In this document: positions 21,071 through 57,743 of the stretch, piece by piece
Position numbering within the stretch: the stretch's first letter is position 1
Layout: the number at the start of each line of letters is the position of its first letter
Assembly (NCBI GenBank): GCA_037893245.1
Contig: JBAIAA010000094.1
Coordinates: 2,108,001 to 2,172,000 of the forward strand
Reading direction: 5' to 3'
Source of the DNA: Crossaster papposus
Lineage: Eukaryota > Echinodermata > Asteroidea > Velatida > Solasteridae
DNA length: 64,000 bases
The notes under the pieces: model-generated
The model's database searches: none
What the model was told of the DNA's origin: nothing
Seen by the model: only the letters and a program-made list of their open reading frames with translations
Position numbers and translations under genes: made by a program

Positions 21071-21940
21071 GGCTCAGATGTCGAGCTGGTGAGTGTCTCT
21101 TCATTCTGGAACAACGTTGAGGTTCGCAGCTCAGATATAAGTCTAGAAAATTATCCTCATTCGCAGCCATGTTTTCTTATGTGTATCTATGTACACGTGT
21201 ATTGCCGCATTGGCCTAGGTCGCCAGTGGCCTGACGCATGAGTCTCACGGTTTGGGTTTTTTTCAGTGAGAAGTTTTGCAATATTTTGGCTCAGATGTCG
21301 AGCTGGTGAGTGTCTCTTCATTCTGGAACAACGTTGAGGTTCGCAGCTCAGATATAAGTCGAGAACATTATCCTCATTCGCAGCCATGTTTTCTTATGTG
21401 TATCTATGAACACGTGTATTGCCGCATTGGCCTAGGTTGCCAGTGGCCTGACGCATGAGTCTCACGGTTTGGGTTTTTTTTCAGTGAGAAGTTTTGCAAT
21501 ATTTTGGCTCAGATGTCGAGCTGGTGAGTGTCTCTTCATTCTGGAACAACGTTGAGGTTCGCAGCTCAGATATAAGTCTAGAAAATTATCCTCATTCGCA
21601 GCCATGTTTTCTTATGTGTATCTATGTACACGTGTATTGCCGCATTGGCCTAGGTCGCCAGTGGCCTGACGCATGAGTCTCACGGTTTGGGTTTTTTTCA
21701 GTGAGAAGTTTTGCAATATTTTGGCTCAGATGTCGAGCTGGTGAGTGTCTCTTCATTCTGGAACAACGTTGAGGTTCGCAGCTCAGATATAAGTCTAGAA
21801 AATTATCCTCATTCGCAGCCATGTTTTCTTATGTGTATCTATGTACACGTGTATTGCCGCATTGGCCTATGTCGCCAGTGCCCTGACGCATGAGTCTCAC
21901 AGTTTAGGTCCTTTCCATTGAGAAAATTGGCAATATTTTG
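21071..21940 (+). repeat. 435-bp A-B dimer HOR, first expansion
   Basis: Monomers alternate A (GTCTAGAAAATTATCC, CTATGTACACG, TAGGTCGCC) and B (GTCGAGAACATTATCC, CTATGAACACG, TAGGTTGCC). Starts of A type lie at 21071 and 21506, a spacing of 435, with B between. Copy 1 of the 6-kb block has one fewer dimer here. Because XbaI-type TCTAGA sites occur in A but not at that place in B, the dimer is also visible as an alternating site pattern. Confidence 0.82.
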
Positions 21941-22374
21941 GCTCTGATGTCGAGCTGGTGAGTGTCTCTTCATTATCGAACAACGTTGAGGTTCGCAGCT
22001 CAAATATAAGTCGAGAAAATTATCCTCATTCGCAGCCACCTTTTCTGATGTGTATGTTTGTACACTTGTATTGCCGCATAGGCCTATGCCGTCAGTGCCC
22101 TGACACATGGGTCTCACGGTTTGGGTTCTTTCTATTGAGAAATTTGGCAATATTTTGGCTCCGATGTCGAGCTGGTGAGTGTCTCTTCATTCTAGAACAA
22201 CGTTGAGGTTCGCAGCTCAAATATAAGTCGAGAACATTATCCTCATTCGCAGCCATGTTTTCTTATGTGTATCTATGAACACGTGTATTGCCGCATTGGC
22301 CTAGGTTGCCAGTGGCCTGACGCATGAGTCTCACGGTTTGGGTTTTTTTTCAGTGAGAAGTTTTGCAATATTTT

Positions 22375-24508
22375 GGCTCAGATGTCGAGCTGGTGAGTGT
22401 CTCTTCATTCTGGAACAACGTTGAGGTTCGCAGCTCAGATATAAGTCTAGAAAATTATCCTCATTCGCAGCCATGTTTTCTTATGTGTATCTATGTACAC
22501 GTGTATTGCCGCATTGGCCTAGGTCGCCAGTGGCCTGACGCATGAGTCTCACGGTTTGGGGTTTTTTCAGTGAGAAGTTTTGCAATATTTTGGCTCAGAT
22601 GTCGAGCTGGTGAGTGTCTCTTCATTCTGGAACAACGTTGAGGTTCGCAGCTCAGATATAAGTCGAGAACATTATCCTCATTCGCAGCCATGTTTTCTTA
22701 TGTGTATCTATGAACACGTGTATTGCCGCATTGGCCTAGGTTGCCAGTGGCCTGACGCATGAGTCTCACGGTTTGGGTTTTTTTTCAGTGAGAAGTTTTG
22801 CAATATTTTGGCTCAGATGTCGAGCTGGTGAGTGTCTCTTCATTCTGGAACAACGTTGAGGTTCGCAGCTCAGATATAAGTCTAGAAAATTATCCTCATT
22901 CGCAGCCATGTTTTCTTATGTGTATCTATGTACACGTGTATTGCCGCATTGGCCTAGGTCGCCAGTGGCCTGACGCATGAGTCTCACGGTTTGGGGTTTT
23001 TTCAGTGAGAAGTTTTGCAATATTTTGGCTCAGATGTCGAGCTGGTGAGTGTCTCTTCATTCTGGAACAACGTTGAGGTTCGCAGCTCAGATATAAGTCG
23101 AGAACATTATCCTCATTCGCAGCCATGTTTTCTTATGTGTATCTATGAACACGTGTATTGCCGCATTGGCCTAGGTTGCCAGTGGCCTGACGCATGAGTC
23201 TCACGGTTTGGGTTTTTTTTCAGTGAGAAGTTTTGCAATATTTTGGCTCAGATGTCGAGCTGGTGAGTGTCTCTTCATTCTGGAACAACGTTGAGGTTCG
23301 CAGCTCAGATATAAGTCTAGAAAAGTATCCTCATTCGCAGCCATGTTTTCTTATGTGTATCTATGTACACGTGTATTGCCGCATTGGCCTAGGTCGCCAG
23401 TGGCCTGACGCATGAGTCTCACGGTTTGGGTTTTTTTCAGTGAGAAGTTTTGCAATATTTTGGCTCAGATGTCGAGCTGGTGAGTGTCTCTTCATTCTGG
23501 AACAATGTAGAGGTTCGCAGCTCAGATATAAGTCTAGAAAATTATCCTCATTCGCAGCCATGTTTTCTTATGTGTATCTATGTACACGTATATTGCCGCA
23601 TAGGCCTATGCCGCCAGTGGCCTGACGCATGAATCTCACAGTTTGGGTTCTTTCCATTGAGAAATTTGGCAATATTTTGTCTAAGATTGCGAGCTGGTGA
23701 GTGTCTCTTCATTCTTGAACAACGTTGAGGTTCGCAGTTAAGATATAAGTTGAAACAATTATCCTGTGTATTGGCGCATTGGCCTATGTCACCAGTGCCC
23801 TGACGCATGAGTCTCACAGTTTGGGTTCTTTCCGTTGAGAAATTTGGCAATATTTTGGCTCAGATGTCGAGCTGGTGAGTGTCTCTTCATTCTCGAACAA
23901 CGTTGAGGTTCGCAGCTCAGATATAAGTCTAGAAAATTATCCTCATTCGCAGCCATGTTTTCTTTTGTGTATCTATGTACACGTGTATTGCCGCATTGGC
24001 CTATGTCGCCAGTGCCCTGACGCATGAGTCTCACAGTTTGGGTCCTTTCCATTGAGAAAGTTGGCAATATTTTGGCTCAGATGTCGAGCTGGTGAGTGTC
24101 TCTTCATTCTCGAACAACGTTGAGGTTCGCAGCTCAAATATAAGTCGAGAAAATTATCCTCATTCGCAGCCACCTTTTCTGATGTGTATGTTTGTACACT
24201 TGTATTGCCGCATAGGCCTATGCCGTCAGTGCACTGACACATGGGTCTCACGGTTTGGGTTTTTTCTATTGAGAAATTTGGCAATATTTTGGCTCCGATG
24301 TCGAGCTGGTGAGTGTCTCTTCATTCTGGAACAACGTTGAGGTTCGCAGCTCAGATATAAGTCGAGAACATTATCCTCATTCGCAGCCATGTTTTCTTAT
24401 GTGTATCTATGAACACGTGTATTGCCGCATTGGCCTAGGTTGCCAGTGGCCTGACGCATGAGTCTCACGGTTTGGGGTTTTTTTCAGTGAGAAGTTTTGC
24501 AATATTTT
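22375..24508 (+). repeat. Decamer super-unit alpha-1 (2134 bp)
   Basis: Order of monomers: A B A B A C T N N N, where A-B is the 435-bp dimer, C has the GTAGAGG variant, T is a 178-bp truncated monomer (23679-23856) and the N monomers are family 1 and 2. Alpha-specific marks shared with 26643-28775 are AAAAGTATCC in the fifth monomer, AACAATGTAGAGG in C, GTCACCAGTG in T, and CAGTGCACTGACAC near the end. Confidence 0.9.
23679..23856 (+). repeat. Truncated monomer T1 (178 bp)
   Basis: Begins GTCTAAGATTGCGAGCTGG and has GTTGAAACAATTATCCTG, where 39 bases are missing between ATCCT (ends 23765) and GTGTATTGG. Lineage I (CGCAGTTAAG). Carries GTCACCAGTG, shared only with the copy at 27947. Confidence 0.92.
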
Positions 24509-26642
24509 GGCTCAGATGTCGAGCTGGTGAGTGTCTCTTCATTCTGGAACAACGTTGAGGTTCGCAGCTCAGATATAAGTCTAGAAAATTATCCTCATTC
24601 GCAGCCATGTTTTCTTATGTGTATCTATGTACACGTGTATTGCCGCATTGGCCTAGGTCGCCAGTGGCCTGACGCATGAGTCTCACGGTTTGGGTTTTTT
24701 TCAGTGAGAAGTTTTGCAATATTTTGGCTCAGATGTCGAGCTGGTGAGTGTCTCTTCATTCTGGAACAACGTTGAGGTTCGCAGCTCAGATATAAGTCGA
24801 GAACATTATCCTCATTCGCAGCCATGTTTTCTTATGTGTATCTATGAACACGTGTATTGCGGCATTGGCCTAGGTTGCCAGTGGCCTGACGCATGAGTCT
24901 CACGGTTTGGGTTTTTTTTCAGTGAGAAGTTTTGCAATATTTTGGCTCAGATGTCGAGCTGGTGAGTGTCTCTTCATTCTGGAACAACGTTGAGGTTCGC
25001 AGCTCAGATATAAGTCTAGAAAATTATCCTCATTCGCAGCCATGTTTTCTTATGTGTATCTATGTACACGTGTATTGCCGCATTGGCCTAGGTCGCCAGT
25101 GGCCTGACGCATGAGTCTCACGGTTTGGGTTTTTTTCAGTGAGAAGTTTTGCAATATTTTGGCTCAGATGTCGAGCTGGTGAGTGTCTCTTCATTCTGGA
25201 ACAACGTTGAGGTTCGCAGCTCAGATATAAGTCGAGAACATTATCCTCATTCGCAGCCATGTTTTCTTATGTGTATCTATGAACACGTGTATTGCGGCAT
25301 TGGCCTAGGTTGCCAGTGGCCTGACGCATGAGTCTCACGGTTTGGGTTTTTTTTCAGTGAGAAGTTTTGCAATATTTTGGCTCAGATGTCGAGCTGGTGA
25401 GTGTCTCTTCATTCTGGAACAACGTTGAGGTTCGCAGCTCAGATATAAGTCTAGAAAATTATCCTCATTCGCAGCCATGTTTTCTTATGTGTATCTATGT
25501 ACACGTGTATTGCCGCATTGGCCTAGGTCGCCAGTGGCCTGACGCATGAGTCTCACGGTTTGGGTTTTTTTCAGTGAGAAGTTTTGCAATATTTTGGCTC
25601 AGATGTCGAGCTGGTGAGTGTCTCTTCATTCTTGAACAACGTAGAGGTTCGCAGCTCAGATACAAGTCGAGAAAATTATCCTCATTCGCAGCCATGTTTT
25701 CTTATGTGTATATATGTACACGTGTATTGCCGCATAGGCCTATGCCGCCAGTGGCCTGACGCATGAATCTCACAGTTTGGGTTCTTTCCATTGAGAAATT
25801 TGGCAATATTTTGTCTAAGATTGCGAGCTGGTGAGTGTCTCTTCATTCTTGAACAACGTTGAGGTTCGCAGTTAAGATATAAGTTGAAACAATTATCCTG
25901 TGTATTGGCGCATTGGCCTATGTCGCCAGTGCCCTGACGCATGAGTCTCACAGTTTGGGTTCTTTCCGTTGAGAAATTTAGCAATATTTTGGCTCAGATG
26001 TCGAGCTGGTGAGTATTCTCTTCATTCTCGAACAACGTTGAGGTTCGCAGCTCAGATATAAGTCTAGAAAATTATCCTCATTCGCAGCCATGTTTTCTTT
26101 TGTGTATCTATGTACACGTGTATTGCCGCATTGGCCTATGTCGCCAGTGCCCTGACGCATGAGTCTCACAGTTTGGGTCCTTTCCATTGAGAATTTGGCA
26201 ATATTTTGGCTCAGATGTCGAGCTGGTGAGTGTCTCTTCATTCTCGAACAACGTTGAGGTTCGCAGCTCAAATATAAGTCGAGAAAATTATCCTCATTCG
26301 CAGCCACCTTTTCTGATGTGTATGTTTGTACACTTGTATTGCCGCATAGGCCTATGCCGTCAGTGCCCTGACACATGGGTCTCACGGTTTGGGTTCTTTC
26401 TATTGAGAAATTTGGCAATATTTTGGCTCCGATGTCGAGCTGGTGAGTGTCTCTTCATTCTAGAACAACGTTGAGGTTCGCAGCTCAAATATAAGTCGAG
26501 AACATTATCCTCATTCGCAGCCATGTTTTCTTATGTGTATCTATGAACACGTGTATTGCCGCATTGGCCTAGGTTGCCAGTGGCCTGACGCATGAGTCTC
26601 ACGGTTTGGGTTTTTTTTCAGTGAGAAGTTTTGCAATATTTT
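24509..26642 (+). repeat. Decamer super-unit beta-1 (2134 bp)
   Basis: Same monomer order as the previous unit, but with different private marks: B monomers with TATTGCGGCATTGG, C with CTTGAACAACGTAGAGG and GATACAAGT, T followed by GAAATTTAGC, a neighbour with GGTGAGTATTCTC, and TTGAGAATTTGGC two bases shorter. The unit at 28776-30909 shares these, the units on either side do not. Confidence 0.9.
25813..25990 (+). repeat. Truncated monomer T2 (178 bp)
   Basis: Same 39-bp deletion; lineage I. Ends GAAATTTAGCAATATT rather than TTTGGC, a change shared only with T4. Confidence 0.92.
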
Positions 26643-28775
26643 GGCTCGGATGTCGAGCTGGTGAGTGTCTCTTCATTCTGGAACAACGTTGAGGTTCGCA
26701 GCTCAGATATAAGTCTAGAAAATTATCCTCATTCGCAGCCATGTTTTCTTATGTGTATCTATGTACACGTGTATTGCCGCATTGGCCTAGGTCGCCAGTG
26801 GCCTGACGCATGAGTCTCACGGTTTGGGGTTTTTTCAGTGAGAAGTTTTGCAATATTTTGGCTCAGATGTCGAGCTGGTGAGTGTCTCTTCATTCTGGAA
26901 CAACGTTGAGGTTCGCAGCTCAGATATAAGTCGAGAACATTATCCTCATTCGCAGCCATGTTTTCTTATGTGTATCTATGAACACGTGTATTGCCGCATT
27001 GGCCTAGGTTGCCAGTGGCCTGACGCATGAGTCTCACGGTTTGGGGTTTTTTTCAGTGAGAAGTTTTGCAATATTTTGGCTCAGATGTCGAGCTGGTGAG
27101 TGTCTCTTCATTCTGGAACAACGTTGAGGTTCGCAGCTCAGATATAAGTCTAGAAAATTATCCTCATTCGCAGCCATGTTTTCTTATGTGTATCTATGTA
27201 CACGTGTATTGCCGCATTGGCCTAGGTCGCCAGTGGCCTGACGCATGAGTCTCACGGTTTGGAGTTTTTTCAGTGAGAAGTTTTGCAATATTTTGGCTCA
27301 GATGTCGAGCTGGTGAGTGTCTCTTCATTCTGGAACAACGTTGAGGTTCGCAGCTCAGATATAAGTCGAGAACATTATCCTCATTCGCAGCCATGTTTTC
27401 TTATGTGTATCTATGAACACGTGTATTGCCGCATTGGCCTAGGTTGCCAGTGGCCTGACGCATGAGTCTCACGGTTTGGGTTTTTTTTCAGTGAGAAGTT
27501 TTGCAATATTTTGGCTCAGATGTCGAGCTGGTGAGTGTCTCTTCATTCTGGAACAACGTTGAGGTTCGCAGCTCAGATATAAGTCTAGAAAAGTATCCTC
27601 ATTCGCAGCCATGTTTTCTTATGTGTATCTATGTACACGTGTATTGCCGCATTGGCCTAGGTCGCCAGTGGCCTGACGCATGAGTCTCACGGTTTGGGTT
27701 TTTTTCAGTGAGAAGTTTTGCAATATTTTGGCTCAGATGTCGAGCTGGTGAGTGTCTCTTCATTCTGGAACAATGTAGAGGTTCGCAGCTCAGATATAAG
27801 TCTAGAAAATTATCCTCATTCGCAGCCATGTTTTCTTATGTGTATCTATGTACACGTATATTGCCGCATAGGCCTATGCCGCCAGTGGCCTGACGCATGA
27901 ATCTCACAGTTTGGGTTCTTTCCATTGAGAAATTTGGCAATATTTTGTCTAAGATTGCGAGCTGGTGAGTGTCTCTTCATTCTTGAACAACGTTGAGGTT
28001 CGCAGTTAAGATATAAGTTGAAACAATTATCCTGTGTATTGGCGCATTGGCCTATGTCACCAGTGCCCTGACGCATGAGTCTCACAGTTTGGGTTCTTTC
28101 CGTTGAGAAATTTGGCAATATTTTGGCTCAGATGTCGAGCTGGTGAGTGTCTCTTCATTCTCGAACAACGTTGAGGTTCGCAGCTCAGATATAAGTCTAG
28201 AAAATTATCCTCATTCGCAGCCATGTTTTCTTTTGTGTATCTATGTACACGTGTATTGCCGCATTGGCCTATGTCGCCAGTGCCCTGACGCATGAGTCTC
28301 ACAGTTTGGGTCCTTTCCATTGAGAAAGTTGGCAATATTTTGGCTCAGATGTCGAGCTGGTAAGTGTCTCTTCATTCTCGAACAACGTTGAGGTTCGCAG
28401 CTCAAATATAAGTCGAGAAAATTATCCTCATTCGCAGCCACCTTTTCTGATGTGTATGTTTGTACACTTGTATTGCCGCATAGGCCTATGCCGTCAGTGC
28501 ACTGACACATGGGTCTCACGGTTTGGGTTTTTTCTATTGAGAAATTTGGCAATATTTTGGCTCCGATGTCGAGCTGGTGAGTGTCTCTTCATTCTGGAAC
28601 AACGTTGAGGTTCGCAGCTCAGATATAAGTCGAGAACATTATCCTCATTCGCAGCCATGTTTTCTTATGTGTATCTATGAACACGTGTATTGCCGCATTG
28701 GCCTAGGTTGCCAGTGGCCTGACGCATGAGTCTCACGGTTTGGGGTTTTTTCAGTGAGAAGTTTTGCAATATTTT
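26643..28775 (+). repeat. Decamer super-unit alpha-2 (2133 bp)
   Basis: Matches alpha-1 at a shift of 4268 with few visible differences: GGCTCGGATG at the start, TTGGAGTTTTTT at about 27.26 kb, and CTGGTAAGTG at about 28.36 kb. It shares AAAAGTATCC, AACAATGTAGAGG and CAGTGCACTGACAC with alpha-1. Confidence 0.9.
27947..28124 (+). repeat. Truncated monomer T3 (178 bp)
   Basis: Same deletion; lineage I with GTCACCAGTG, as in T1, exactly 4268 bp upstream. Confidence 0.92.
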
Positions 28776-30909
28776 GGCTCAGATGTCGAGCTGGTGAGTG
28801 TCTCTTCATTCTGGAACAACGTTGAGGTTCGCAGCTCAGATATAAGTCTAGAAAATTATCCTCATTCGCAGCCATGTTTTCTTATGTGTATCTATGTACA
28901 CGTGTATTGCCGCATTGGCCTAGGTCGCCAGTGGCCTGACGCATGAGTCTCACGGTTTGGGTTTTTTTCAGTGAGAAGTTTTGCAATATTTTGGCTCAGA
29001 TGTCGAGCTGGTGAGTGTCTCTTCATTCTGGAACAACGTTGAGGTTCGCAGCTCAGATATAAGTCGAGAACATTATCCTCATTCGCAGCCATGTTTTCTT
29101 ATGTGTATCTATGAACACGTGTATTGCGGCATTGGCCTAGGTTGCCAGTGGCCTGACGCATGAGTCTCACGGTTTGGGTTTTTTTTCAGTGAGAAGTTTT
29201 GCAATATTTTGGCTCAGATGTCGAGCTGGTGAGTGTCTCTTCATTCTGGAACAACGTTGAGGTTCGCAGCTCAGATATAAGTCTAGAAAATTATCCTCAT
29301 TCGCAGCCATGTTTTCTTATGTGTATCTATGTACACGTGTATTGCCGCATTGGCCTAGGTCGCCAGTGGCCTGACGCATGAGTCTCACGGTTTGGGTTTT
29401 TTTCAGTGAGAAGTTTTGCAATATTTTGGCTCAGATGTCGAGCTGGTGAGTGTCTCTTCATTCTGGAACAACGTTGAGGTTCGCAGCTCAGATATAAGTC
29501 GAGAACATTATCCTCATTCGCAGCCATGTTTTCTTATGTGTATCTATGAACACGTGTATTGCGGCATTGGCCTAGGTTGCCAGTGGCCTGACGCATGAGT
29601 CTCACGGTTTGGGTTTTTTTTCAGTGAGAAGTTTTGCAATATTTTGGCTCAGATGTCGAGCTGGTGAGTGTCTCTTCATTCTGGAACAACGTTGAGGTTC
29701 GCAGCTCAGATATAAGTCTAGAAAATTATCCTCATTCGCAGCCATGTTTTCTTATGTGTATCTATGTACACGTGTATTGCCGCATTGGCCTAGGTCGCCA
29801 GTGGCCTGACGCATGAGTCTCACGGTTTGGGTTTTTTTCAGTGAGAAGTTTTGCAATATTTTGGCTCAGATGTCGAGCTGGTGAGTGTCTCTTCATTCTT
29901 GAACAACGTAGAGGTTCGCAGCTCAGATACAAGTCGAGAAAATTATCCTCATTCGCAGCCATGTTTTCTTATGTGTATCTATGTACACGTGTATTGCCGC
30001 ATAGGCCTATGCCGCCAGTGGCCTGACGCATGAATCTCACAGTTTGGGTTCTTTCCATTGAGAAATTTGGCAATATTTTGTCTAAGATTGCGAGCTGGTG
30101 AGTGTCTCTTCATTCTTGAACAACGTTGAGGTTCGCAGTTAAGATATAAGTTGAAACAATTATCCTGTGTATTGGCGCATTGGCCTATGTCGCCAGTGCC
30201 CTGACGCATGAGTCTCACAGTTTGGGTTCTTTCCGTTGAGAAATTTAGCAATATTTTGGCTCAGATGTCGAGCTGGTGAGTATTCTCTTCATTCTCGAAC
30301 AACGTTGAGGTTCGCAGCTCAGATATAAGTCTAGAAAATTATCCTCATTCGCAGCCATGTTTTCTTTTGTGTATCTATGTACACGTGTATTGCCGCATTG
30401 GCCTATGTCGCCAGTGCCCTGACGCATGAGTCTCACAGTTTGGGTCCTTTCCATTGAGAATTTGGCAATATTTTGGCTCAGATGTCGAGCTGGTGAGTGT
30501 CTCTTCATTCTCGAACAACGTTGAGGTTCGCAGCTCAAATATAAGTCGAGAAAATTATCCTCATTCGCAGCCACCTTTTCTGATGTGTATGTTTGTACAC
30601 TTGTATTGCCGCATAGGCCTATGCCGTCAGTGCCCTGACACATGGGTCTCACGGTTTGGGTTCTTTCTATTGAGAAATTTGGCAATATTTTGGCTCCGAT
30701 GTCGAGCTGGTGAGTGTCTCTTCATTCTAGAACAACGTTGAGGTTCGCAGCTCAAATATAAGTCGAGAACATTATCCTCATTCGCAGCCATGTTTTCTTA
30801 TGTGTATCTATGAACACGTGTATTGCCGCATTGGCCTAGGTTGCCAGTGGCCTGACGCATGAGTCTCACGGTTTGGGTTTTTTTTCAGTGAGAAGTTTTG
30901 CAATATTTT
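28776..30909 (+). repeat. Decamer super-unit beta-2 (2134 bp)
   Basis: Matches beta-1 at a shift of 4267, including TATTGCGGCATTGG in both B monomers, CTTGAACAACGTAGAGG in C, GGTGAGTATTCTC and TTGAGAATTTGGC. It differs visibly at the T-tract length of the first monomers and at TATCTATG for TATATATG in C. Confidence 0.9.
30080..30257 (+). repeat. Truncated monomer T4 (178 bp)
   Basis: Same deletion; lineage I; carries GAAATTTAGC, as in T2, 4267 bp upstream. Confidence 0.92.
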
Positions 30910-33043
30910 GGCTCAGATGTCGAGCTGGTGAGTGTCTCTTCATTCTGGAACAACGTTGAGGTTCGCAGCTCAGATATAAGTCTAGAAAATTATCCTCATT
31001 CGCAGCCATGTTTTCTTATGTGTATCTATGTACACGTGTATTGCCGCATTGGCCTAGGTCGCCAGTGGCCTGACGCATGAGTCTCACGGTTTGGGGTTTT
31101 TTCAGTGAGAAGTTTTGCAATATTTTGGCTCAGATGTCGAGCTGGTGAGTGTCTCTTCATTCTGGAACAACGTTGAGGTTCGCAGCTCAGATATAAGTCG
31201 AGAACATTATCCTCATTCGCAGCCATGTTTTCTTATGTGTATCTATGAACACGTGTATTGCCGCATTGGCCTAGGTTGCCAGTGGCCTGACGCATGAGTC
31301 TCACGGTTTGGGTTTTTTTTCAGTGAGAAGTTTTGCAATATTTTGGCTCAGATGTCGAGCTGGTGAGTGTCTCTTCATTCTGGAACAACGTTGAGGTTCG
31401 CAGCTCAGATATAAGTCTAGAAAATTATCCTCATTCGCAGCCATGTTTTCTTATGTGTATCTATGTACACGTGTATTGCCGCATTGGCCTAGGTCGCCAG
31501 TGGCCTGACGCATGAGTCTCACGGTTTGGGTTTTTTTCAGTGAGAAGTTTTGCAATATTTTGGCTCAGATGTCGAGCTGGTGAGTGTCTCTTCATTCTGG
31601 AACAACGTTGAGGTTCGTAGCTCAGATATAAGTCGAGAACATTATCCTCATTCGCAGCCATGTTTTCTTATGTGTATCTATGAACACGTGTATTGGCGCA
31701 TTGGCCTAGGTTGCCAGTGGCCTGACGCATGAGTCTCACGGTTTGGGTTTTTTTTCAGTGAGAAGTTTTGCAATATTTTGGCTCAGATGTCGAGCTGGTG
31801 AGTGTCTCTTCATTCTGGAACAACGTTGAGGTTCGCAGCTCAGATATAAGTCTAGAAAATTATCCTCATTCGCAGCCATGTTTTCTTATGTGTATCTATG
31901 TACACGTGTATTGCCGCATTGGCCTAGGTCGCCAGTGGCCTGACGCATGAGTCTCACGGTTTGGGTTTTTTTCAGTGAGAAGTTTTGCAATATTTTGGCT
32001 CAGATGTCGAGCTGGTGAGTGTCTCTTCATTCTGGAACAACGTAGAGGTTCGCAGCTCAGATATAAGTCTAGAAAATTATCCTCATTCGCAGCCATGTTT
32101 TCTTATGTGTATATATGTACACGTGTATTGCCGCATAGGCCTATGCCGCCAGTGGCCTGACGCATGAATCTCACAGTTTGGGTTCTTTCCATTGAGAAAT
32201 TTGGCAATATTTTGTCTAAGATTGCGAGCTGGTGAGTGTCTCTTCATTCTTGAACAACGTTGAGGTTCGCAGTTAAGATATAAGTTGAAACAATTATCCT
32301 GTGTATTGGCGCATTGGCCTATGTCGCCAGTGCCCTGACGCATGAGTCTCACAGTTTGGGTTCTTTCCGTTGAGAAATTTGGCAATATTTTGGCTCAGAT
32401 GTCGAGCTGGTGAGTGTCTCTTCATTCTCGAACAACGTTGAGGTTCGCAGCTCAGATATAAGTCTAGAAAATTATCCTCATTCGCAGCCATGTTTTCTTT
32501 TGTGTATCTATGTACACGTGTATTGCCGCATTGGCCTATGTCGCCAGTGCCCTGACGCATGAGTCTCACAGTTTGGGTCCTTTCCATTGAGAAAGTTGGC
32601 AATATTTTGGCTCAGATGTCGAGCTGGTGAGTGTCTCTTCATTCTCGAACAACGTTGAGGTTCGCAGCTCAAATATAAGTCGAGAAAATTATCCTCATTC
32701 GCAGCCACCTTTTCTGATGTGTATGTTTGTACACTTGTATTGCCGCATAGGCCTATGCCGTCAGTGCCCTGACACATGGGTCTCACGGTTTGGGTTTTTT
32801 CTATTGAGAAATTTGACAATATTTTGGCTCCGATGTCGAGCTGGTGAGTGTCTCTTCATTCTAGAACAACGTTGAGGTTCGCAGCTCAAATATAAGTCGA
32901 GAACATTATCCTCATTCGCAGCCATGTTTTCTTATGTGTATCTATGTACACGTGTATTGCCGCATTGGCCTAGGTCGCCAGTGGCCTGACGCATGAGTCT
33001 CACGGTTTGGGTTTTTTTTCAGTGAGAAGTTTTGCAATATTTT
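30910..33043 (+). repeat. Decamer super-unit alpha-3 (2134 bp)
   Basis: Closer to the alpha units (no TATTGCGGC, no GGTGAGTATTCTC, full-length TTGAGAAAGTTGGC), but without AAAAGTATCC and GTCACCAGTG. It has private changes GGTTCGTAGC and TATTGGCGCATTGG in its second B monomer. Its right part overlaps the first 13-mer (31997-34781). Confidence 0.85.
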
Positions 33044-34781
33044 GGCTCAGATGTCGAGCTGGTGAGTGTCTCTTCATTCTGGAACAACGTTGAGGTTCGC
33101 AGCTCAGATATAAGTCTAGAAAATTATCCTCATTCGCAGCCATCTTTTCTTATGTGTATCTATGTACACGTGTATTGCCGCACTGGCCTATGTCGCCAGT
33201 GGCCTGACGCATGAGTTTCACAGTTTGGGTCCTTTCCATTGAAAAAGTTGGCAATATTTTAGCTCAGATGTCGAGCTGGTGAGTGTCTCTTCATTCTCGA
33301 ACAACGTTGAGGTTCGCAGCTCAAATATAAGTCGAGAAAATTATCCTCATTCGCAGCCACCTTTTCTGATGTGTATGTTTGTACACTTGTGTTGCCGCAT
33401 AGGCCTATGCCGTCAGTGCCCTGACACATGGGTCTCACGGTTTGGGTTCTTTCTATTGAGAAATTTGGCAATATTTTGGCTCCGATGTCGAGCTGGTGAA
33501 TGTCTCTTCATTCTATAACAACGTTGAGGTTCGCAGCTCAAATATAAGTCGAGAACATTATCCTCATTCGCAGCCATGTTTTCTTATGTGTATCTATGTA
33601 CACGTGTATTGCCGCATTGGCCTAGGTCGCCAGTGGCCTGACGCATGAGTCTCACGGTTTGGGTTTTTTTTCAGTGAGAAGTTTTGCAATATTTTGGCTC
33701 AGATGTCGAGCTGGTGAGTGTCTCTTAATTCTGGAACAACGTTGAGGTTCGCAGCTCAGATATAAGTCTAGAAAATTATCCTCATTCGCAGCCATCTTTT
33801 CTTATGTGTATCTATGTACACGTGTATTGCCGCACTGGCCTATGTCGCCAGTGGCCTGACGCATGAGTTTCACAGTTTGGGTTCTTTCCATTGAGAAATT
33901 TGGCAATATTTTGGCTCAGATGTCGAGCTGGTGAGTGTCTCTTCATTCTTGAACAACGTTGAGGTTCGCAGCTCAGATACAAGTCGAGAAGATTATCCTC
34001 ATTCGCAGCCATGTTTTCTTATGTGTATCTATGTGCACGTGTATTGCCGCATTGGTCCGTGTCGCCAGTGCCCTGACGCATGAGTCTCACAGTTTGGGTC
34101 CTTTCCATTGAGAAATTTGGCAATATTTTGGCTCAGATGTCGAGCTGGTGAGTGTCTCTTCATTCTCGAACAACGTTGAGGTTCGCAGCTCAAATATAAG
34201 TCGAGAAAATTATCCTCATTCGCAGCCATGTTTTCTTATGTGTATCTATGTACACGTGTATTGCCGCATTGGCCTAGGTCGCCAGTGGCCTGACGCATGA
34301 GTCTCACGGTTTGGGTTTTTTTCAGTGGGAAGTTTTGCAATAATTTGGCTCAGATGTCGAGCTGGTGAGTGTCTCTTCATTCTGGAACAACGTTGAGGTT
34401 CGCAGCTCAGATATAAGTCGAGAACATTATCCTCATTCGCAGCCATGTTTTCTTATGTGTATCTATGAACACGTGTATTGGCGCATTGGCCTAGGTTGCC
34501 AGTGGCCTGACGCATGAGTCTCACGGTTTGGGTTTTTTTTCAGTGAGAAGTTTTGCAATATTTTGGCTCAGATGTCGAGCTGGTGAGTGTCTCTTCATTC
34601 TGGAACAACGTTGAGGTTCGCAGCTCAGATATAAGTCTAGAAAATTATCCTCATTCGCAGCCATGTTTTCTTATGTGTATCTATGTACACGTGTATTGCC
34701 GCATTGGCCTAGGTCGCCAGTGGCCTGACGCATGAGTCTCACGGTTTGGGTTTTTTTCAGTGAGAAGTTTTGCAATATTTT
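31997..34781 (+). repeat. 13-mer HOR unit 1 (2785 bp)
   Basis: Starts at the C monomer and includes T5. Bases recur from 34782 at a shift of 2785. It contains an internal 652-bp (three-monomer) repeat: about 32.63 kb onward recurs from about 33.28 kb. Private marks are CCATCTTTTCTTATG, TATTTTAGCTCAG, GGTGAATGTC with TTCTATAACAACG, and CATTGGTCCGTGTCGCC. Confidence 0.86.
32214..32391 (+). repeat. Truncated monomer T5 (178 bp)
   Basis: Same deletion; lineage I with GTCGCCAGTG. First T of the 13-mer zone. Confidence 0.92.
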
Positions 34782-37131
34782 GGCTCAGATGTCGAGCTGG
34801 TGAGTGTCTCTTCATTCTGGAACAACGTAGAGGTTCGCAGCTCAGATATAAGTCTAGAAAATTATCCTCATTCGCAGCCATGTTTTCTTATGTGTATCTA
34901 TGTACACGTGTATTGCCGCATAGGCCTATGCCGCCAGTGGCCTGACGCATGAATCTCACAATTTGGGTTCTTTCCATTGAGAAATTTGGCAATATTTTGT
35001 CTAAGATTGCGAGCTGGTGAGTGTCTCTTCATTCTTGAACAACGTTGAGGTTCGCAGTTAAGATATAAGTTGAAACAATTATCCTGTGTATTGGCGCATT
35101 GGCCTATGTCGCCAGTGCCCTGACGCATGAGTCTCACAGTTTGGGTTCTTTCCGTTGAGAAATTTGGCAATATTTTGGCTCAGATGTCGAGCTGGTGAGT
35201 GTCTCTTCATTCTCGAACAACGTTGAGGTTCGCAGCTCAGATATAAGTCTAGAAAATTATCCTCATTCGCAGCCATGTTTTCTTTTGTGTATCTATGTAC
35301 ACGTGTATTGCCGCATTGGCCTATGTCGCCAGTGCCCTGACGCATGAGTCTCACAGTTTGGGTCCTTTCCATTGAGAAAGTTGGCAATATTTTGGCTCAG
35401 ATGTCGAGCTGGTGAGTGTCTCTTCATTCTCGAACAACGTTGAGGTTCGCAGCTCAAATATAAGTCGAGAAAATTATCCTCATTCGCAGCCACCTTTTCT
35501 GATGTGTATGTTTGTACACTTGTATTGCCGCATAGGCCTATGCCGTCAGTGCCCTGACACATGGGTCTCACGGTTTGGGTTTTTTCTATTGAGAAATTTG
35601 GCAATATTTTGGCTCCGATGTCGAGCTGGTGAGTGTCTCTTCATTCTAGAACAACGTTGAGGTTCGCAGCTCAAATATAAGTCGAGAACATTATCCTCAT
35701 TCGCAGCCATGTTTTCTTATGTGTATCTATGTACACGTGTATTGCCGCATTGGCCTAGGTCGCCAGTGGCCTGACGCATGAGTCTCACGGTTTGGGTTTT
35801 TTTTCAGTGAGAAGTTTTGCAATATTTTGGCTCAGATGTCGAGCTGGTGAGTGTCTCTTCATTCTGGAACAACGTTGAGGTTCGCAGCTCAGATATAAGT
35901 CTAGAAAATTATCCTCATTCGCAGCCATCTTTTCTTATGTGTATCTATGTACACGTGTATTGCCGCACTGGCCTATGTCGCCAGTGGCCTGACGCATGAG
36001 TTTCACAGTTTGGGTCCTTTCCATTGAAAAAGTTGGCAATATTTTAGCTCAGATGTCGAGCTGGTGAGTGTCTCTTCATTCTCGAACAACGTTGAGGTTC
36101 GCAGCTCAAATATAAGTCGAGAAAATTATCCTCATTCGCAGCCACCTTTTCTGATGTGTATGTTTGTACACTTGTATTGCCGCATAGGCCTATGCCGTCA
36201 GTGCCCTGACACATGGGTCTCACGGTTTGGGTTCTTTCTATTGAGAAATTTGGCAATATTTTGGCTCCGATGTCGAGCTGGTGAATGTCTCTTCATTCTA
36301 TAACAACGTTGAGGTTCGCAGCTCAAATATAAGTCGAGAACATTATCCTCATTCGCAGCCATGTTTTCTTATGTGTATCTATGTACACGTGTATTGCCGC
36401 ATTGGCCTAGGTCGCCAGTGGCCTGACGCATGAGTCTCACGGTTTGGGTTTTTTTTCAGTGAGAAGTTTTGCAATATTTTGGCTCAGATGTCGAGCTGGT
36501 GAGTGTCTCTTCATTCTGGAACAACGTTGAGGTTCGCAGCTCAGATATAAGTCTAGAAAATTATCCTCATTCGCAGCCATCTTTTCTTATGTGTATCTAT
36601 GTACACGTGTATTGCCGCACTGGCCTATGTCGCCAGTGGCCTGACGCATGAGTTTCACAGTTTGGGTTCTTTCCATTGAGAAATTTGGCAATATTTTGGC
36701 TCAGATGTCGAGCTGGTGAGTGTCTCTTCATTCTTGAACAACGTTGAGGTTCGCAGCTCAGATACAAGTCGAGAAGATTATCCTCATTCGCAGCCATGTT
36801 TTCTTATGTGTATCTATGTGCACGTGTATTGCCGCATTGGTCCGTGTCGCCAGTGCCCTGACGCACGAGTCTCACAGTTTGGGTCCTTTCCATTGAGAAA
36901 TTTGGCAATATTTTGGCTCAGATGTCGAGCTGGTGAGTGTCTCTTCATTCTCGAACAACGTTGAGGTTCGCAGCTCAAATATAAGTCGAGAAAATTATCC
37001 TCATTCGCAGCCATGTTTTCTTATGTGTATCTATGTACACGTGTATTGCCGCATTGGCCTAGGTCGCCAGTGGCCTGACGCATGAGTCTCACGGTTTGGG
37101 TTTTTTTCAGTGAGAAGTTTTGCAATATTTT
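34782..37131 (+). repeat. 13-mer HOR unit 2, shortened to 11 monomers (2350 bp)
   Basis: Follows unit 1 at shift 2785 until about 37.1 kb, then goes directly to the next C and T monomers, so two monomers (about 435 bp, an A-type neighbour pair at 34.35-34.78 kb) are absent. The fusion lies at monomer positions of about 46-73, since the left part has ACGTTGAGG and the right part GTCTAGAAAA. Confidence 0.82.
34999..35176 (+). repeat. Truncated monomer T6 (178 bp)
   Basis: Same deletion; lineage I. Recurs as T10 at a distance of 14606. Confidence 0.92.
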
Positions 37132-37526: not shown

Positions 37527-37999
37527 GGCTCAGATGTCGAGCTGCTGAGTGTCTCTTCATTCTCGAACAACGTTGAGGTTCGCAGCTCAGATATAAGTCG
37601 AGAAAATTATCCTCATTCGCAGCCATGTTTTTTTTATGTGTATCTATGTACACGTGTATTGCCGCATTGGCCTATGTCGCCAGTGTCCTGACGCATGAGT
37701 CTCACAGTTTGGGTTCTTTCCATTGAGAGATTTGGCAATATTTTGGCTCAGATGTCGAGCTGGTTAGTGTCTCTTCATTCTCGAACAACGTTGAGGTTCG
37801 CAGCTCAAATATAAGTCGAGAAAATTATCCTCATTCGCAGCCATGTTTTCTTATGTGTATCTATGTACAAGTGTATTGCCGCATAGGCCTATGTCGCCAG
37901 TGCCCTGACGCATGAGTCTCACAGTTTGGGTTCTTTCCATTGAGAAATTTGGCAATATTTTGGCTCAGATGTCGAGCTGGTGAGTGTCTCTTCATTCTC

Positions 38000-40900
38000 G
38001 AACAACGTTGAGGTTCGCAGCTCAGATATAAGTCGAGAAAAGTATCCTCATTCGCACCCACCTTTTCTGATGTGTATGTTTGTACACTTGTATTGCCGCA
38101 TAGGCCTATGCCGCCAGTGCCCTGACACATGGGTCTCACGGTTTGGGTTTTTTCCAGTGAGAAGTTTGGCAATATTTTGGCTCAGATGTCGAGCTGGTGA
38201 GTGTCTCTTCATTCTCGAACAACGTTGAGGTTCGCAGATCAGATATAAGTCTCGAAAATTATCCTCATTCGCAGCCATGTTTTCTTTATGTGTATCTATG
38301 TACACGTGTAGTGCCGCATTGGCCTATGTCGCCAGTGCCCTGACGCATGAGTCTCACAGTTTGGGTCCTTTCCATTGAGAAAGTTGACAATATTTTGGCT
38401 CAGATGTCGAGCTGGTGAGTGTCTCTTCATTCTCGAACAACGTTGAGGTTCGCAGCTCAAATACAAGTCGAGAAGATTATCCTCATTCGCAGCCATGTTT
38501 TCTTATGTGTATCAATGTACACGTGTATTGCCGCATTGGCCTATGTCGCCAGTGCCCTGACGCATAAGTTTCACAGTTTGGGTCCTTTCCATTGAGAAAG
38601 TTGGCAATATTTTGGCTCAGATGTAGAGCTGGTGAGTGTCTCTTCATTCTCGAACAACGTTGAGGTTCGCAGCTCAGATATAAGTCGAGAAAATTATCCT
38701 CATTCGCACCCACCTTTTCTGATGTGTATGTTTGTACACTTGTATTGCCGCATAGGCCTATGCCGTCAGTGCCCTGACACATGGGTCTCACAGTTTGGGT
38801 TCTTTCTATTTAGAAATTTGGCAATATTTTGGCTCCGATGTCGAGCTGGTGAGTGTCTCTTCATTCTCGAACAACGTTGAGGTTCGCAGCTCAAATATAA
38901 GTCGAGAACATTATCCTCATTCGCAGCCATGTTTTCTTATGTGTATCTATGTACACGTGTATTGCCGCATAGGCCTATGTCGCCATTGCCCTGACGCATG
39001 AGTCTCACAGTTTGGGTTCTTTCTATTGAGAAATTTGGCAGTATTTTGGCTCCGATGTCGAGCTGGTGAGTGTCTCTTCATTCTCGAACAACGTTGAGGT
39101 TCGCAGCTCAAATATAAGTCGAGAACATTATCCTCATTCGCAGCCATGTTTTCTTATGTGTATCTATGTACACGTGTATTGCCGCATTGGCCTAGGTCGC
39201 CAGTGGCCTGACGCATGAGTCTCACAGTTTGGGTTCTTTCTATTGAGAAATTTGGCAATATTTTGGCTCCGATGTCGAGCTGGTGAGTGTCTCTTCATTC
39301 TCGAACAACGTTGAGGTTCGCAGCTCAGATACAAGTCGAGAAGATTATCCTCATTCGCAGCCATGTTTTCTTATGTGTATCTATGTACACGTGTATTGCC
39401 GCATTGGCCTATGTCGCCAGTGCCCTGACGCATGAGTCTCACAGTTTGGGTCCTTTCCATTGAGAAAGTTGGCAATATTTTGGCTCAGATATCGCGCTGG
39501 TGAGTGTCTCTTCATTCTCGAACAACGTTGAGGTTCGCAGCACAAATAAATGTCCAGAACATTATCCTCATTCGCAGCCATGTTTTCTTATGTGTATGTT
39601 TGTACACTTGTATTGCCGCATAGGCCTATGCCGTCAGTGCCCTGACGCATGAGTCTCACAGTTTGGGTTTTTTCTATTGAGAAATTTGGCAATATTTTGG
39701 CTCCGATGTCGAGCTGGTGAGTGTCTCTTCATTCTAGAACAACGTTGAGGTTCGCAGCTCAAATATAAGTCGAGAACATTATCCTCATTCGCAGCCATGT
39801 TTTCTTATGTGTATCTATGTACACGTGTATTGCCGCATTGGCCTAGGTCGCCAGTGGCCTGACGCATGAGTCTCACGGTTTGGGGTTTTTTCCAGTGAGA
39901 AGTTTTGCAATATTTTGGCTTAGATGTCGAGCTGGTGAGTGTCTCTTCATTCTGGAACAATGTTGAGGTTCGCAGCTCAGATACAAGTCGAGAAGATTAT
40001 CCTCATTCGCAGCCATGTTTTCTTATGTGTATCAATGTACACGTGTATTGCCGCATTGGCCTATGTCGCCAGTGCCCTGACGCATAATTTTCACAGTTTG
40101 GGTCCTTTCCATTGAGAAAGTTGGCAATATTTTGGCTCAGATGTTGAGCTGGTGAGTGTCTCTTCATTCTCGAACAACGTTGAGGTTCGCAGCTCAGATA
40201 GAAGTCGAGAAAATTATCCTCATTCGCACCCACCTTTTCTGATGTGTATGTTTGTACACTTGTATTGCCGCATAGGCCTATGCCGCCAGTGCCCTGACAC
40301 ATGGGTCTCACGGTTTGGGTTTTTTCCAGTGAGAAGTTTGGCAATATTTTGGCTCAGATGTCGAGCTGGTGAGTGTCTCTTCATTCTCGAACAACGTTGA
40401 GGTTCGCAGATCAGATATAAGTCTAGAAAATTATCCTCATTCGCAGCCATGTTTTCTTTATGTGTATCTATGTACACGTGTAGTGCCGCATTGGCCTATG
40501 TCGCCAGTGCCCTGACGCATGAGTCTCACAGTTTGGGTCCTTTCCATTGAGAAAGTTGACAATATTTTGGCTCAGATGTCGAGCTGGTGAGTGTCTCTTC
40601 ATTCTCGAACAACGTTGAGGTTCGCAGCTCAAATACAAGTCGAGAAGATTATCCTCATTCGCAGCCATGTTTTCTTATGTGTATCAATGTACACGTGTAT
40701 TGCCGCATTGGCCTATGTCGCCAGTGCCCTGACGCATAAGTTTCACAGTTTGGGTCCTTTCCATTGAGAAAGTTGGCAATATTTTGGCTCAGATGTCGAG
40801 CTGGTGAGTGTCTCTTCATTCTCGAACAACGTTGAGGTTCGCAGCTCAAATATAAGTCTAGAAAATTATCCTCATTCGCAGCCATGTTTTCTTATGTGTA

Positions 40901-41230
40901 TCTATGTACACGTGTATTGCCGCATGGGCCTATGCCGTCAGTGCCCTGACACATGGGTCTCACGGTTTGGTTTTTTTCTATTGAGAAATTTGGCAATATT
41001 TTGGCTCCGATGTCGAGCTGGTGAGTGTCTCTTCATTCTCGAACAACGTTGAGGTTCGCAGCTCAGATATAAGTCGAGAAAATTATCCTCATTCGTAGCT
41101 ATGTTTTCTTATGTGTATCTATGTACACGTGCATTGCCGCATAGGCCTATGTCGCCAGTGCCCTGACGCATGAGTCTCACAGTTTGGGTTCTTTCTATTG
41201 AGAAATTTGGCAATATTTTGGCTCCGATGT
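38000..41230 (+). repeat. Block co-linear with 8.72-11.95 kb (shift about 29281)
   Basis: About fifteen monomers keep the order of the 8.7-12 kb decamer zone, including GCACCCACC, TTTTCTTTATGTG with CACGTGTAGTGCC, the ATATCGCGCTGG monomer and the GCTTAGATG monomer. The intervening region (20-37 kb) is a different HOR family. The match ends at about 41.23 kb, where one monomer is missing relative to 11.94-12.19 kb. Confidence 0.82.
39482..39698 (+). repeat. ATATCGCGCTGG marker monomer, copy 4
   Basis: Same linked variants as the copies at 6.7-10.4 kb, 29281 bp from the one at 10201. It has AAATAAATGTCC where the others have AAATAAAAGTCC. Confidence 0.85.
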
Positions 41231-42087
41231 CGAGCTGGTGAGTGTCTCTTCATTCTTGAACAACGTTGAGGTTCGCAGCTCACATACAAGTCGAGAAGAT
41301 TATCCTCATTCGCAGCCATGTTTTCTTATGTGTATCAATGTACACGTGTATTGCCGCATTGGCCTATGTCGCCAGTGCCCTGACGCATGAGTTTCACAGT
41401 TTGGGTCCTTTCCATTGAGAAAGTTGGCAATATTTTGGCTCAGATGTTGAGCTGGTGAGTGTCTTTTCATTCTCGAACAACGTTGAGGTTCGCAGCTCAA
41501 ATAAAAGTCCAGAACATTATCCTCATTCGCAGCCATGTTTTCTTATGTGTATGTTTGTACACTTGTATTGCCGCATAGGCCTATGCCGTCAGTGCCCTGA
41601 CGCATGAGTATCACAGTTTGGGTTCTTTCTATTGAGAAATTTGGCAATATTTTGGCTCCGATGTCGAGCTGGTGAGTGTCTCTTCATTCTAGAACAACGT
41701 TGAGGTTCGCAGCTCAAATATAAGTCGAGAACATTATCCTCATTCGCAGCCATGTTTTCTTATGTGTATCTATGTACACGTGTATTGCCGCATTGGCCTA
41801 GGTCGCCAGTGGCCTGACGCATGAGTCTCACGGTTTGGGTTTTTTTCAGTGAGAAGTTTTGCAATATTTTGGCTCAGATGTCGAGCTGGTGAGTGTCTCT
41901 TCATTCTGGAACAACGTTGAGGTTCGCAGCTCAGATATAAGTCTAGAAAATTATCCTCATTCGCAGCCATGTTTTCTTATGTGTATCTATGTACACGTGT
42001 ATTGCCGCATAGGCCTATGCCGCCAGTGGCCTGACGCATGAATCTCACAGTTTGGGTTCTTTCCATTGAGAAATTTGGCAATATTTT

Positions 42088-42265
42088 GTCTAAGATTGCG
42101 AGCTGGTGAGTGTCTCTTCATTCTTGAACAACGTTGAGGTTCGCAGCTAAGATATAAGTTGAAACAATTATCCTGTGTATTGGCGCATTGGCCTATGTCG
42201 CCAGTGCCCTGACGCATGAGTCTCACAGTTTGGGTTCTTTCCGTTGAGAAATTTGGCAATATTTT
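42088..42265 (+). repeat. Truncated monomer T8 (178 bp)
   Basis: Same deletion; lineage II (CGCAGCTAAG, followed by GAGCTGCTGAGTG). Confidence 0.92.
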
Positions 42266-42390
42266 GGCTCAGATGTCGAGCTGCTGAGTGTCTCTTCATT
42301 CTCGAACAACGTTGAGGTTCGCAGCTCAGATATAAGTCGAGAAAATTATCCTCATTCGCAGCCATGTTTTTTTTATGTGTATCTATGTAC

Positions 42391-42410
42391 ACGTGTATTG
42401 GCCTATGTCG
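42391..42410 (+). other. 8-bp deletion between ATTG repeats
   Basis: CGTGTATTGGCCTATG replaces CGTGTATTGCCGCATTGGCC. The lost 8 bases lie between two ATTG copies, so slippage or short-homology deletion explains it. It makes the distance from T7 to T8 4739 minus 8 when compared with the flanking shift of 4731. Confidence 0.82.
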
Positions 42411-43930
42411 CCAGTGTCCTGACGCATGAGTCTCACAGTTTGGGTTCTTTCCATTGAGAGATTTGGCAATATTTTGGCTCAGATGTCGAGCTGGTAAGTG
42501 TCTCTTCATTCTCGAACAACGTTGAGGTTCGCAGCTCAAATATAAGTCGAGAAAATTATCCTCATTCGCAGCCATGTTTTCTTATGTGTATCTATGTACA
42601 AGTGTATTGCCGCATAGGCCTATGTCGCCAGTGCCCTGACGCATGAGTCTCACAGTTTGGGTTCTTTCCATTGAGAAATTTGGCAATATTTTGGCTCAGA
42701 TGTCGAGCTGGTGAGTGTCTCTTCATTCTCGAACAACGTTGAGGTTCGCAGCTCAGATATAAGTCGAGAAAATTATCCTCATTCGCACCCACCTTTTCTG
42801 ATGTGTATGTTTGTACACTTGTATTGCCGCATAGGCCTATGCCGCCAGTGCCCTGACACATGGGTCTCACGGTTTGGGTTTTTTCCAGTGAGAAGTTTGG
42901 CAATATTTTGGCTCAGATGTCGAGCTGGTGAGTGTCTCTTCATTCTCGAACAACGTTGAGGTTCGCAGATCAGATATAAGTCTCGAAAATTATCCTCATT
43001 CGCAGCCATGTTTTCTTTATGTGTATCTATGTACACGTGTAGTGCCGCATTGGCCTATGTCGCCAGTGCCCTGACGCATGAGTCTCACAGTTTGGGTCCT
43101 TTCCATTGAGAAAGTTGACAATATTTTGGCTCAGATGTCGAGCTGGTGAGTATCTCTTCATTCTCGAACAACGTTGAGGTTCGCAGCTCAAATACAAGTC
43201 GAGAAGATTATCCTCATTCGCAGCCATGTTTTCTTATGTGTATCAATGTACACGTGTATTGCCGCATTGGCCTATGTCGCCAGTGCCCTGACGCATAAGT
43301 TTCACAGTTTGGGTCCTTTCCATTGAGAAAGTTGGCAATATTTTGGCTCAGATGTAGAGCTGGTGAGTGTCTCTTCATTCTCGAACAACGTTGAGGTTCG
43401 CAGCTCAGATATAAGTCGAGAAAATTATCCTCATTCGCACCCACCTTTTCTGATGTGTATGTTTGTACACTTGTATTGCCGCATAGGCCTATGCCGTCAG
43501 TGCCCTGACACATGGGTCTCACAGTTTGGGTTCTTTCTATTTAGAAATTTGGCAATATTTTGGCTCCGATGTCGAGCTGGTGAGTGTCTCTTCATTCTCG
43601 AACAACGTTGAGGTTCGCAGCTCAAATATAAGTCGAGAACATTATCCTCATTCGCAGCCATGTTTTCTTATGTGTATCTATGTACACGTGTATTGCCGCA
43701 TAGGCCTATGTCGCCAGTGCCCTGACGCATGAGTCTCACAGTTTGGGTTCTTTCTATTGAGAAATTTGGCAATATTTTGGCTCCGATGTCGAACTGGTGA
43801 GTGTCTCTTCATTCTCGAACAACGTTGAGGTTCGCAGCTCAAATATAAGTCGAGAACATTATCCTCATTCGCAGCCATGTTTTCTTATGTGTATCTATGT
43901 ACACGTGTATTGCCGCATTGGCCTAGGTCG
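42411..43930 (+). repeat. Heptamer HOR unit 1 (1520 bp)
   Basis: Seven monomers that recur directly at 43931-45450. Shared marks include GTGTCCTGACGC with GAGAGATTTGG, CTGGTAAGTG, TACAAGTGTATTG, GCACCCACC, TTTTCTTTATGTG, GTGAGTATCTCTTC and GTCGAACTGGTG. Confidence 0.86.
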
Positions 43931-43936
43931 CCAGTG
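43926..43936 (+). other. Exchange junction of the heptamer duplication
   Basis: Chimeric monomer. Its left part is CCTAGGTC (as at 45.44 kb), its right part CAGTGTCCTGACGC with GAGAGATTTGG (as at 42.42 kb). The switch lies between G43925 and T43937, at monomer positions of about 148-157. Confidence 0.82.
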
Positions 43937-45450: not shown

Positions 45451-45732
45451 CCAGTGGCCTGACGCATGAGTCTCACAGTTTGGGTTCTTTCTATTGAGAA
45501 ATTTGGCAATATTTTGGCTCCGATGTCGAGCTGGTGAGTGTCTCTTCATTCTCGAACAACGTTGAGGTTCGCAGCTCAGATACAAGTCGAGAAGATTATC
45601 CTCATTCGCAGCCATGTTTTCTTATGTGTATCTATGTACACGTGTATTGCCGCATTGGCCTATGTCGCCAGTGCCCTGACGCATGAGTCTCACAGTTTGG
45701 GTCCTTTCCATTGAGAAAGTTGGCAATATTTT

Positions 45733-45949
45733 GGCTCAGATATCGCGCTGGTGAGTGTCTCTTCATTCTCGAACAACGTTGAGGTTCGCAGCACAAATAA
45801 AAGTCCAGAACATTATCCTCATTCGCAGCCATGTTTTCTTATGTGTATGTTTGTACACTTGTATTGCAGCATAGGCCTATGCCGTCAGTGCCCTGACGCA
45901 TGAGTCTCACAGTTTGGGTTTTTTCTATTGAGAAATTTGGCAATATTTT
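45733..45949 (+). repeat. ATATCGCGCTGG marker monomer, copy 5
   Basis: Last copy of the marker monomer, 6251 bp after the fourth. It has TTGCAGCATAGG where the others have TTGCCGCATAGG. Confidence 0.85.
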
Positions 45950-57700: not shown

Positions 57701-57743
57701 TCACAGTTTGGGTTCTTTTCAGTGAGAAGTTTTGCAATATTTT
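54741..57743 (+). repeat. 14-mer HOR unit 2 (3003 bp)
   Basis: Follows unit 1 at a shift of 3003 with very few visible changes (GCCATGTTTTC for GCCATGTCTTC, TTGGGGTTTTTTT for a longer T tract, CTCGAAC for CTGGAAC near 57.57 kb, GAAATGTGGC shared by both units). All ordered marks listed for unit 1 are present. Confidence 0.9.
54958..55135 (+). repeat. Truncated monomer T12 (178 bp)
   Basis: Same deletion; lineage II. Exactly 3003 bp after T11. Confidence 0.92.

Follow-up and report, generated by a model that had tools for sequence, protein, structure and literature searches.

Between about 22 and 33 kb of a 64-kb stretch of satellite DNA from the sea star Crossaster papposus, repeat units appear to be nested within repeat units at four levels (217, 435, 2134, and 4267 bp), and the question that this locus raises is whether the longest of them is the standing unit of its array or the trace of local duplications, and by what steps such nesting could have come about. 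The window, by which we mean the whole 64,000-nucleotide stretch that was analyzed, covers positions 2108001–2172000 of contig C94 (JBAIAA010000094.1; 2,238,877 bases) in an assembly of 1,023,315,904 bases and 1841 contigs. We conclude, with a probability of roughly 0.8, that local nested amplification gave rise to the block, inside a centromere-type satellite array of megabase length.

The Satellite and Its Genomic Setting

Rows of period 217 reported by Tandem Repeats Finder tile all 64 kb of the window, with a mean pairwise identity of 0.924 among its monomers (n = 296 complete monomers; table 1). A 10-bp palindrome, TACACGTGTA, spans the monomer junction (consensus 213 to 5) and is present in 184 exact copies in the window. 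The core motif of the CENP-B box is NTTCGNNNNANNCGGGN, and no such box was found: the best match in the consensus retains six of the nine core bases and the best in the window seven of nine, as compared with five to eight in 200 shuffles of the consensus, and the 217-bp monomer does not belong among the CENP-B-box satellites. Nor did best-window tests detect a locally conserved box in the monomer (P = 0.42–0.90), the least conserved 20-bp window being consensus 191–210 (P = 0.07). Rfam returned no matches for the satellite at gathering score, its folding as single-stranded DNA is not unusual (z = −1.26), and a literature search, judged from the openings of abstracts, found no published description of this 217-bp satellite.

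Among 13 further stretches of C94, nine consist of 70–100% satellite, one of 59%, and one (C94:1950001–1955000) of 34%, and the two adjacent to the window are essentially satellite-free; the satellite matches in the sampled C94 stretches lie on the plus strand throughout. On C146, satellite was found in all five 1-kb samples at 4.0–5.2 Mb (four fully, one to 35%) and in none of six outside this interval, so that an array exceeding 1 Mb lies within a 6.93-Mb contig, flanked on both sides by nonsatellite DNA. Six of the nine 1-kb samples from C337 contain satellite, five at 1.8–2.85 Mb and a sixth at 3.4 Mb, and it is absent from those at 1.0, 3.2, and 3.59 Mb; on both C146 and C337 the satellite samples are on the minus strand throughout. 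Arrays of megabase scale are present on at least three contigs, C94, C146, and C337 (C94 and C337 as judged from samples), and satellite matches occur also on C287, C606, C186, C1804, and C9, the last having both strands, at different places, among the matches listed. A 5-kb sample of C606 (386001–391000) carries both strands (7 plus and 20 minus), a switch not seen in the other stretches sampled on C94, C146, and C337.

The satellite 20-mer AACAACGTTGAGGTTCGCAG has 51,537 exact occurrences in the assembly (30,631 forward and 20,906 reverse). Among 689 monomers sampled, 503 carry it, and among the 393 of these that lie outside the window, 242 do; from these figures we estimate a total of roughly 71,000–84,000 monomers, or 15–18 Mb. 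In extent the satellite is comparable with a centromeric one, forming megabase arrays that are bounded by nonsatellite DNA and lie on several contigs, and its size and flanks make the array as a whole a candidate centromere or pericentromere.

Several other elements were encountered in and around the sampled DNA. The satellite-free region adjacent to the window (C94:2088001–2108000) is at least 19.9 kb of nonsatellite DNA that stops some 80 bases short of the window, and its halves carry near-duplicate sets of open reading frames (ORFs): a 685-aa ORF has a Phage_integrase match below threshold (20 bits vs. 27.1), and ORFs of 260 and 251 aa, for which there were no Pfam matches, are by eye what we take to be Rep/helicase-like proteins. 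This region probably represents two mobile elements in tandem that lie within the array. At C94:1950001–1955000 the satellite is broken by a 467-aa transposase ORF (DDE_Tnp_4, 4.2e-34) that adjoins a gag-like ORF (Retrotrans_gag, 0.002, below cut-off). Outside the sampled satellite, C146:3500001–3501000 is a dispersed repeat with at least 28 full or nearly full-length copies, itself included, at 96–100% identity among the 40 of 194 candidates that were scored. A COX1-family gene on C8 (5208663–5210009; a 682-aa open frame) looks bacterial by eye, and C8 may hence be a symbiont or contaminant contig. On C1841, genetic codes 4, 5, 9, and 13 all leave the COX1 frame open; upstream of COX1 lie reversed tRNAs Leu, Tyr, and Leu, whereas that for Gln is forward. 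By eye, its COX1 has AAA at what we take to be conserved Asn positions (code 9, of echinoderms and flatworms), and ND1 is presumably reversed upstream of COX1, in a gene order that we take to be sea-star-like; on this mitochondrial evidence the genome is probably that of an echinoderm.

Table 1. Positions of repeat features within the 64,000-nucleotide window.
Feature	Position	Strand	Remarks
217-bp satellite, head to tail	1–64000	+	296 complete monomers segmented
Decamer U0, beta class	21632–23765	+	first 345 bp diverge from other units
Decamer U1, alpha class	23766–25899	+	
Decamer U2, beta class	25900–28033	+	
Decamer U3, alpha class	28034–30166	+	3 mismatches vs. U1
Decamer U4	30167–32300	+	beta-like at most class sites; alpha-like at four from column 1367 on
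Tract least diverged at lag 20 (4268 bp)	about 22001–31500	+	most recent pair duplication
B-A-B-A-B tract, 435-bp period, in U1	24417–25504	+	
B-A-B-A-B equivalents	22283–23370, 26551–27638, 28685–29771, 30818–31905		
178-bp monomer, last in decamer	23588–23765	+	39-bp deletion, consensus 179–217
Further 178-bp monomers (starts)	25722, 27856, 29989, 32123, 34908, 37258, 41997, 48684, 49514, 51864, 54867, 57870		
13-monomer duplication, neighboring	31471–37040	+	2785 bp, two copies, 99.7%
14-monomer duplication with the same truncated monomer	51864–58264	+	3003 bp, 99.8%
Lag-29 duplication	37654–46728	+	37654–40477 and 43905–46728, 6251 bp apart, 99.5%

Alternating Decamers and Nested Periods

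When the block is compared with itself base by base at fixed offsets, identity is highest at 2134 bp (0.769) and 4267 bp (0.741), followed by 0.643 at 435 bp and 0.642 at 217 bp, so that all four periods named in the preliminary description of this DNA were recovered. Mean identity between the monomers of the block (n = 50) is 0.996 at lag 20, 0.993 at lag 40, 0.992 at lag 30, and 0.990 at lag 10, compared with 0.940 at both lag 1 and lag 2, and the excess at lags 10 and 20 over lag 1 places the block among higher-order repeats (HORs). That description had also reasoned that an alternation of two decamer classes, alpha and beta, would be unreal if identity at lag 10 equaled or exceeded that at lag 20; the reverse was found.

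Decamers of 2133–2134 bp, each composed of nine full monomers and one 178-bp monomer, occupy about 22.0–33.2 kb, and similarity at the level of the decamer reaches to about 33.17 kb. We phased five of them, U0–U4, to end in the 178-bp monomer (lengths 2134, 2134, 2134, 2133, and 2134 bp); the units first described, numbered 1–5, follow the phase 22375 + n × 2134. In the latter phase, units 1 and 3 differ at 4 positions and units 2 and 4 at 1, as against 20 between units 1 and 2, 24 between 2 and 3, and 23 between 3 and 4, corresponding to a divergence of about 1% for adjacent units among the first four and 0.05–0.2% for units two apart. Unit 5 is equidistant from the rest (15–19 mismatches from every other unit), and hence, of the five decamers originally described, the alternation extends to the first four.

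Within U1–U4, 16 of the columns that divide the units two versus two (two of them gap columns) agree with the alternating split, and the other two possible splits have 0 and 1. The lag-10 divergence exceeded the lag-20 divergence in all 5000 column bootstraps (columns from 346 on), and of the 120 orders in which the units can be arranged, 4 reach a difference as large as that observed, the actual order being one of these. Self-BLAST returned a single merged pair (8540 bp, offset 4268, 98.2%), which is too coarse to separate the two classes. The alternation is real, although two of the short marks by which the classes had first been told apart are not exclusive to them: AAAAGTATCC is found also at 38038 and 46896, and TATTGCGGCATTGG at 4254 and 5123. 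The first 345 bp of U0 have 16–18 differences from each other unit and the remainder just 3 from U2, a contrast that delimits the duplicated segment on its left.

A 20-mer of about 4267 bp had been put forward as the true repeat. The tract of low lag-20 divergence is real but contains about 2.2 copies of the 20-mer, which was hence duplicated locally and is not the unit that the array at large is built of.

The internal A-B dimer of 435 bp is likewise present, but is confined to part of each decamer: positions 1–3 differ, positions 4–8 follow the order B-A-B-A-B, position 9 is a related monomer (B′), and the 178-bp monomer occupies position 10. Parity across the whole decamer is without effect (permutation P = 0.51), and it is through the B-A-B-A-B tract at positions 4–8 of each decamer that the block qualifies as a local-nested HOR. 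In each of the two alpha units, positions 5–6 and 7–8 hold identical dimers, although alpha and beta units differ there by 1–2 bases per monomer; the remaining units have 0–2 differences between dimer monomers. This pattern, in small counts, suggests that the dimers were homogenized or re-copied at or after the split between alpha and beta. A strict ladder of four successively younger levels is doubtful, since the dimer copies, on the same small counts, appear no older than that split.

A Deletion Junction Private to the Window

The junction left by the 39-bp deletion in the 178-bp monomer provides a tag for this HOR. As an exact 20-mer, a definition under which junctions with an altered base go uncounted, it occurs 13 times in the 1.02-Gb assembly, and all 13 occurrences lie at 23.75–58.06 kb of the window, which indicates that the HOR is private to about 35 kb. 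Thirteen occurrences within 35 kb make the junction a natural marker with which duplications can be ordered, and the locus a clean example of how a nested repeat originates.

Recent duplication is not restricted to the decamers. Of the 296 window monomers, 214 fall in 45 duplicated runs (four or more monomers at an identity of at least 98.5%), with lags of 10, 13, 14, 20, 24, 28, 29, 68, and more; shuffling the order of the monomers yields 0.02 runs on average (50 shuffles). Beyond the window, 16 other satellite stretches were sampled, and 14 of them contain monomers that have a partner of at least 99% identity within the same stretch, at best lags that vary by stretch (in 5-kb stretches, long lags depend on few monomer pairs); the two stretches lacking one hold 7 monomers (C94:1950001–1955000) and 15 monomers. 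An array on C9 (669501–678500) contains a separate 2861-bp repeat, with an identity of 0.990 at its own unit lag, in which a 61-bp deletion starting at consensus 177 occurs 10 times in 9 kb, or about three deleted monomers per unit. The confined junction, the varied lags, and the separate repeat on C9 together indicate that the HORs of this satellite are of local extent and that the two that were traced carry different marks.

History of the Block

A tree of the decamers with two neighboring units as outgroups has the form ((U0,U2)99,U4)63,(U1,U3)100. Together with the step in divergence, whereby a two-decamer segment recurs at far lower divergence than neighboring decamers and produces the order beta-alpha-beta-alpha, the tree supports the history suggested at the outset, in which a decamer was duplicated, the copies diverged, and the pair was duplicated again. 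At its four alpha-like sites, U4 has the same state as both outgroup units, and these sites are hence probably ancestral. We also considered an exchange between classes as the source of the mixed sites in U4; a tree without exchange suffices, yet the node that joins U4 has a support of only 63.

Segments bearing the 39-bp deletion multiplied into decamers; we propose that the deletion arose once, and that two versions of the decamer drifted apart before the pair was copied again. Unequal sister-chromatid exchange of the ordinary kind, or replication-based template switching, would have done the copying, gene conversion over short distances would have kept the 435-bp dimers similar, and the pattern would require no selection.

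A neutral model points in the same direction. In arrays of 296 monomers, blocks were duplicated at random, losses balanced the gains, and mutations accumulated, with tuning to a similar divergence (mean 14–18 differences per monomer pair). For mean blocks of 4, 8, and 15 monomers, alternation, counted at unit lengths of 3 to 30, appeared with at least 10 sites in 11, 13, and 8 of 100 arrays, respectively, and with at least 16 sites in 4, 6, and 7 of 100; in a first, small simulation (18 runs) it appeared solely in arrays less diverged than the real one. The simulated arrays exceed the real window in the number of duplicated runs (medians 76.5, 126.5, and 172 vs. 45), whereas their longest runs fall short of it (medians 13, 17, and 26 vs. 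30), so the model is rough and serves as a check of sufficiency. Under this model, ordinary random copying can account for the alternation, selection being unnecessary.

Alternative Explanations

A chromosome-wide HOR of the human type, in which a single 20-mer unit is homogenized throughout the array and maintained by functional selection, would produce the canonical nesting that the block displays at 99–99.9% identity. We consider it scarcely credible here, as the low-divergence tract holds too few 20-mer copies, the exact junction is restricted to about 35 kb of a 2.24-Mb contig, and different lags prevail in other parts; the block is hence not a canonical chromosome-wide HOR. Repeated decamers could also have been generated by a misjoin or a false expansion during assembly, and units two apart do differ by so little (1–4 bases per 2134 bp) that an assembler could confuse them. 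An artifact of this kind is nevertheless very improbable given the 16 consistent columns that distinguish alpha from beta and the local duplicates in most other sampled stretches, and the block is presumably shorter than many long reads.

Functional readings center on the truncated monomers. The amplified truncations, one on each of two contigs, affect the same monomer end: one removes 39 bp from consensus 179 and the other 61 bp from consensus 177, crossing the junction, and both, as judged by coordinates, destroy the TACACGTGTA palindrome. This coincidence speaks for a reading in which the block with its 178-bp monomers would be the core, still actively expanding, of a domain that bears the kinetochore, the truncations being kept for altering spacing or for breaking the palindrome. 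The distinct deletions of at least 7 bp, however, number eight (between exact 20-mer anchors), which is too small a number to test; recent duplications are seen in the majority of the other stretches sampled as well; and loss at this end of the monomer may simply be tolerated, because consensus 191–210 is the least conserved window. We therefore regard a kinetochore core as quite improbable. A broader proposal, that the arrays of a centromere-forming satellite have repeatedly founded private nested HORs from truncated, palindrome-breaking monomers, and that the founder deletions mark a kinetochore-associated zone of current turnover, seems to us unlikely. Local nested amplification within a large satellite array is the reading that we carry into the comparison below.

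Comparison with Known Satellite Systems

Human alpha-satellite arrays are organized as a hierarchy from monomer to HOR with near-identical HOR copies, and primary work on CEN180 reportedly describes Arabidopsis arrays with irregular, variable-length duplications. Local-nested HORs have been described in human centromeres in the HiCAT report (PMC10053651). They resemble the present block in that a subunit of the HOR is itself tandemly amplified and dimers expand within longer units, and differ from it in that here the monomer is 217 bp, there is no CENP-B box, and about two to five local copies exist rather than a chromosome-wide unit.

A survey of satellites in 21 species, the SRF paper, reports that most of the species are without rich higher-order structure and includes the spiny starfish (Table 4 in PMC10153287). 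Our results suggest that local structure can be common and yet be overlooked when a method looks for a single unit across the genome. The same survey (PMC10153287) describes human alpha-satellite HOR arrays, with which the block shares the hierarchy and the near-identity of HOR copies. Unlike human alpha satellite, the array studied here has no CENP-B box and no unit homogenized array-wide, and its monomer is 217 bp long as opposed to 171 bp. The weak high-order patterns of Arabidopsis CEN180, as they are presented in that survey (PMC10153287), resemble those of the sea star array, with irregular duplications of variable length and no stable dominant unit; the organism and the monomer length are different, and the comparison is one of pattern.
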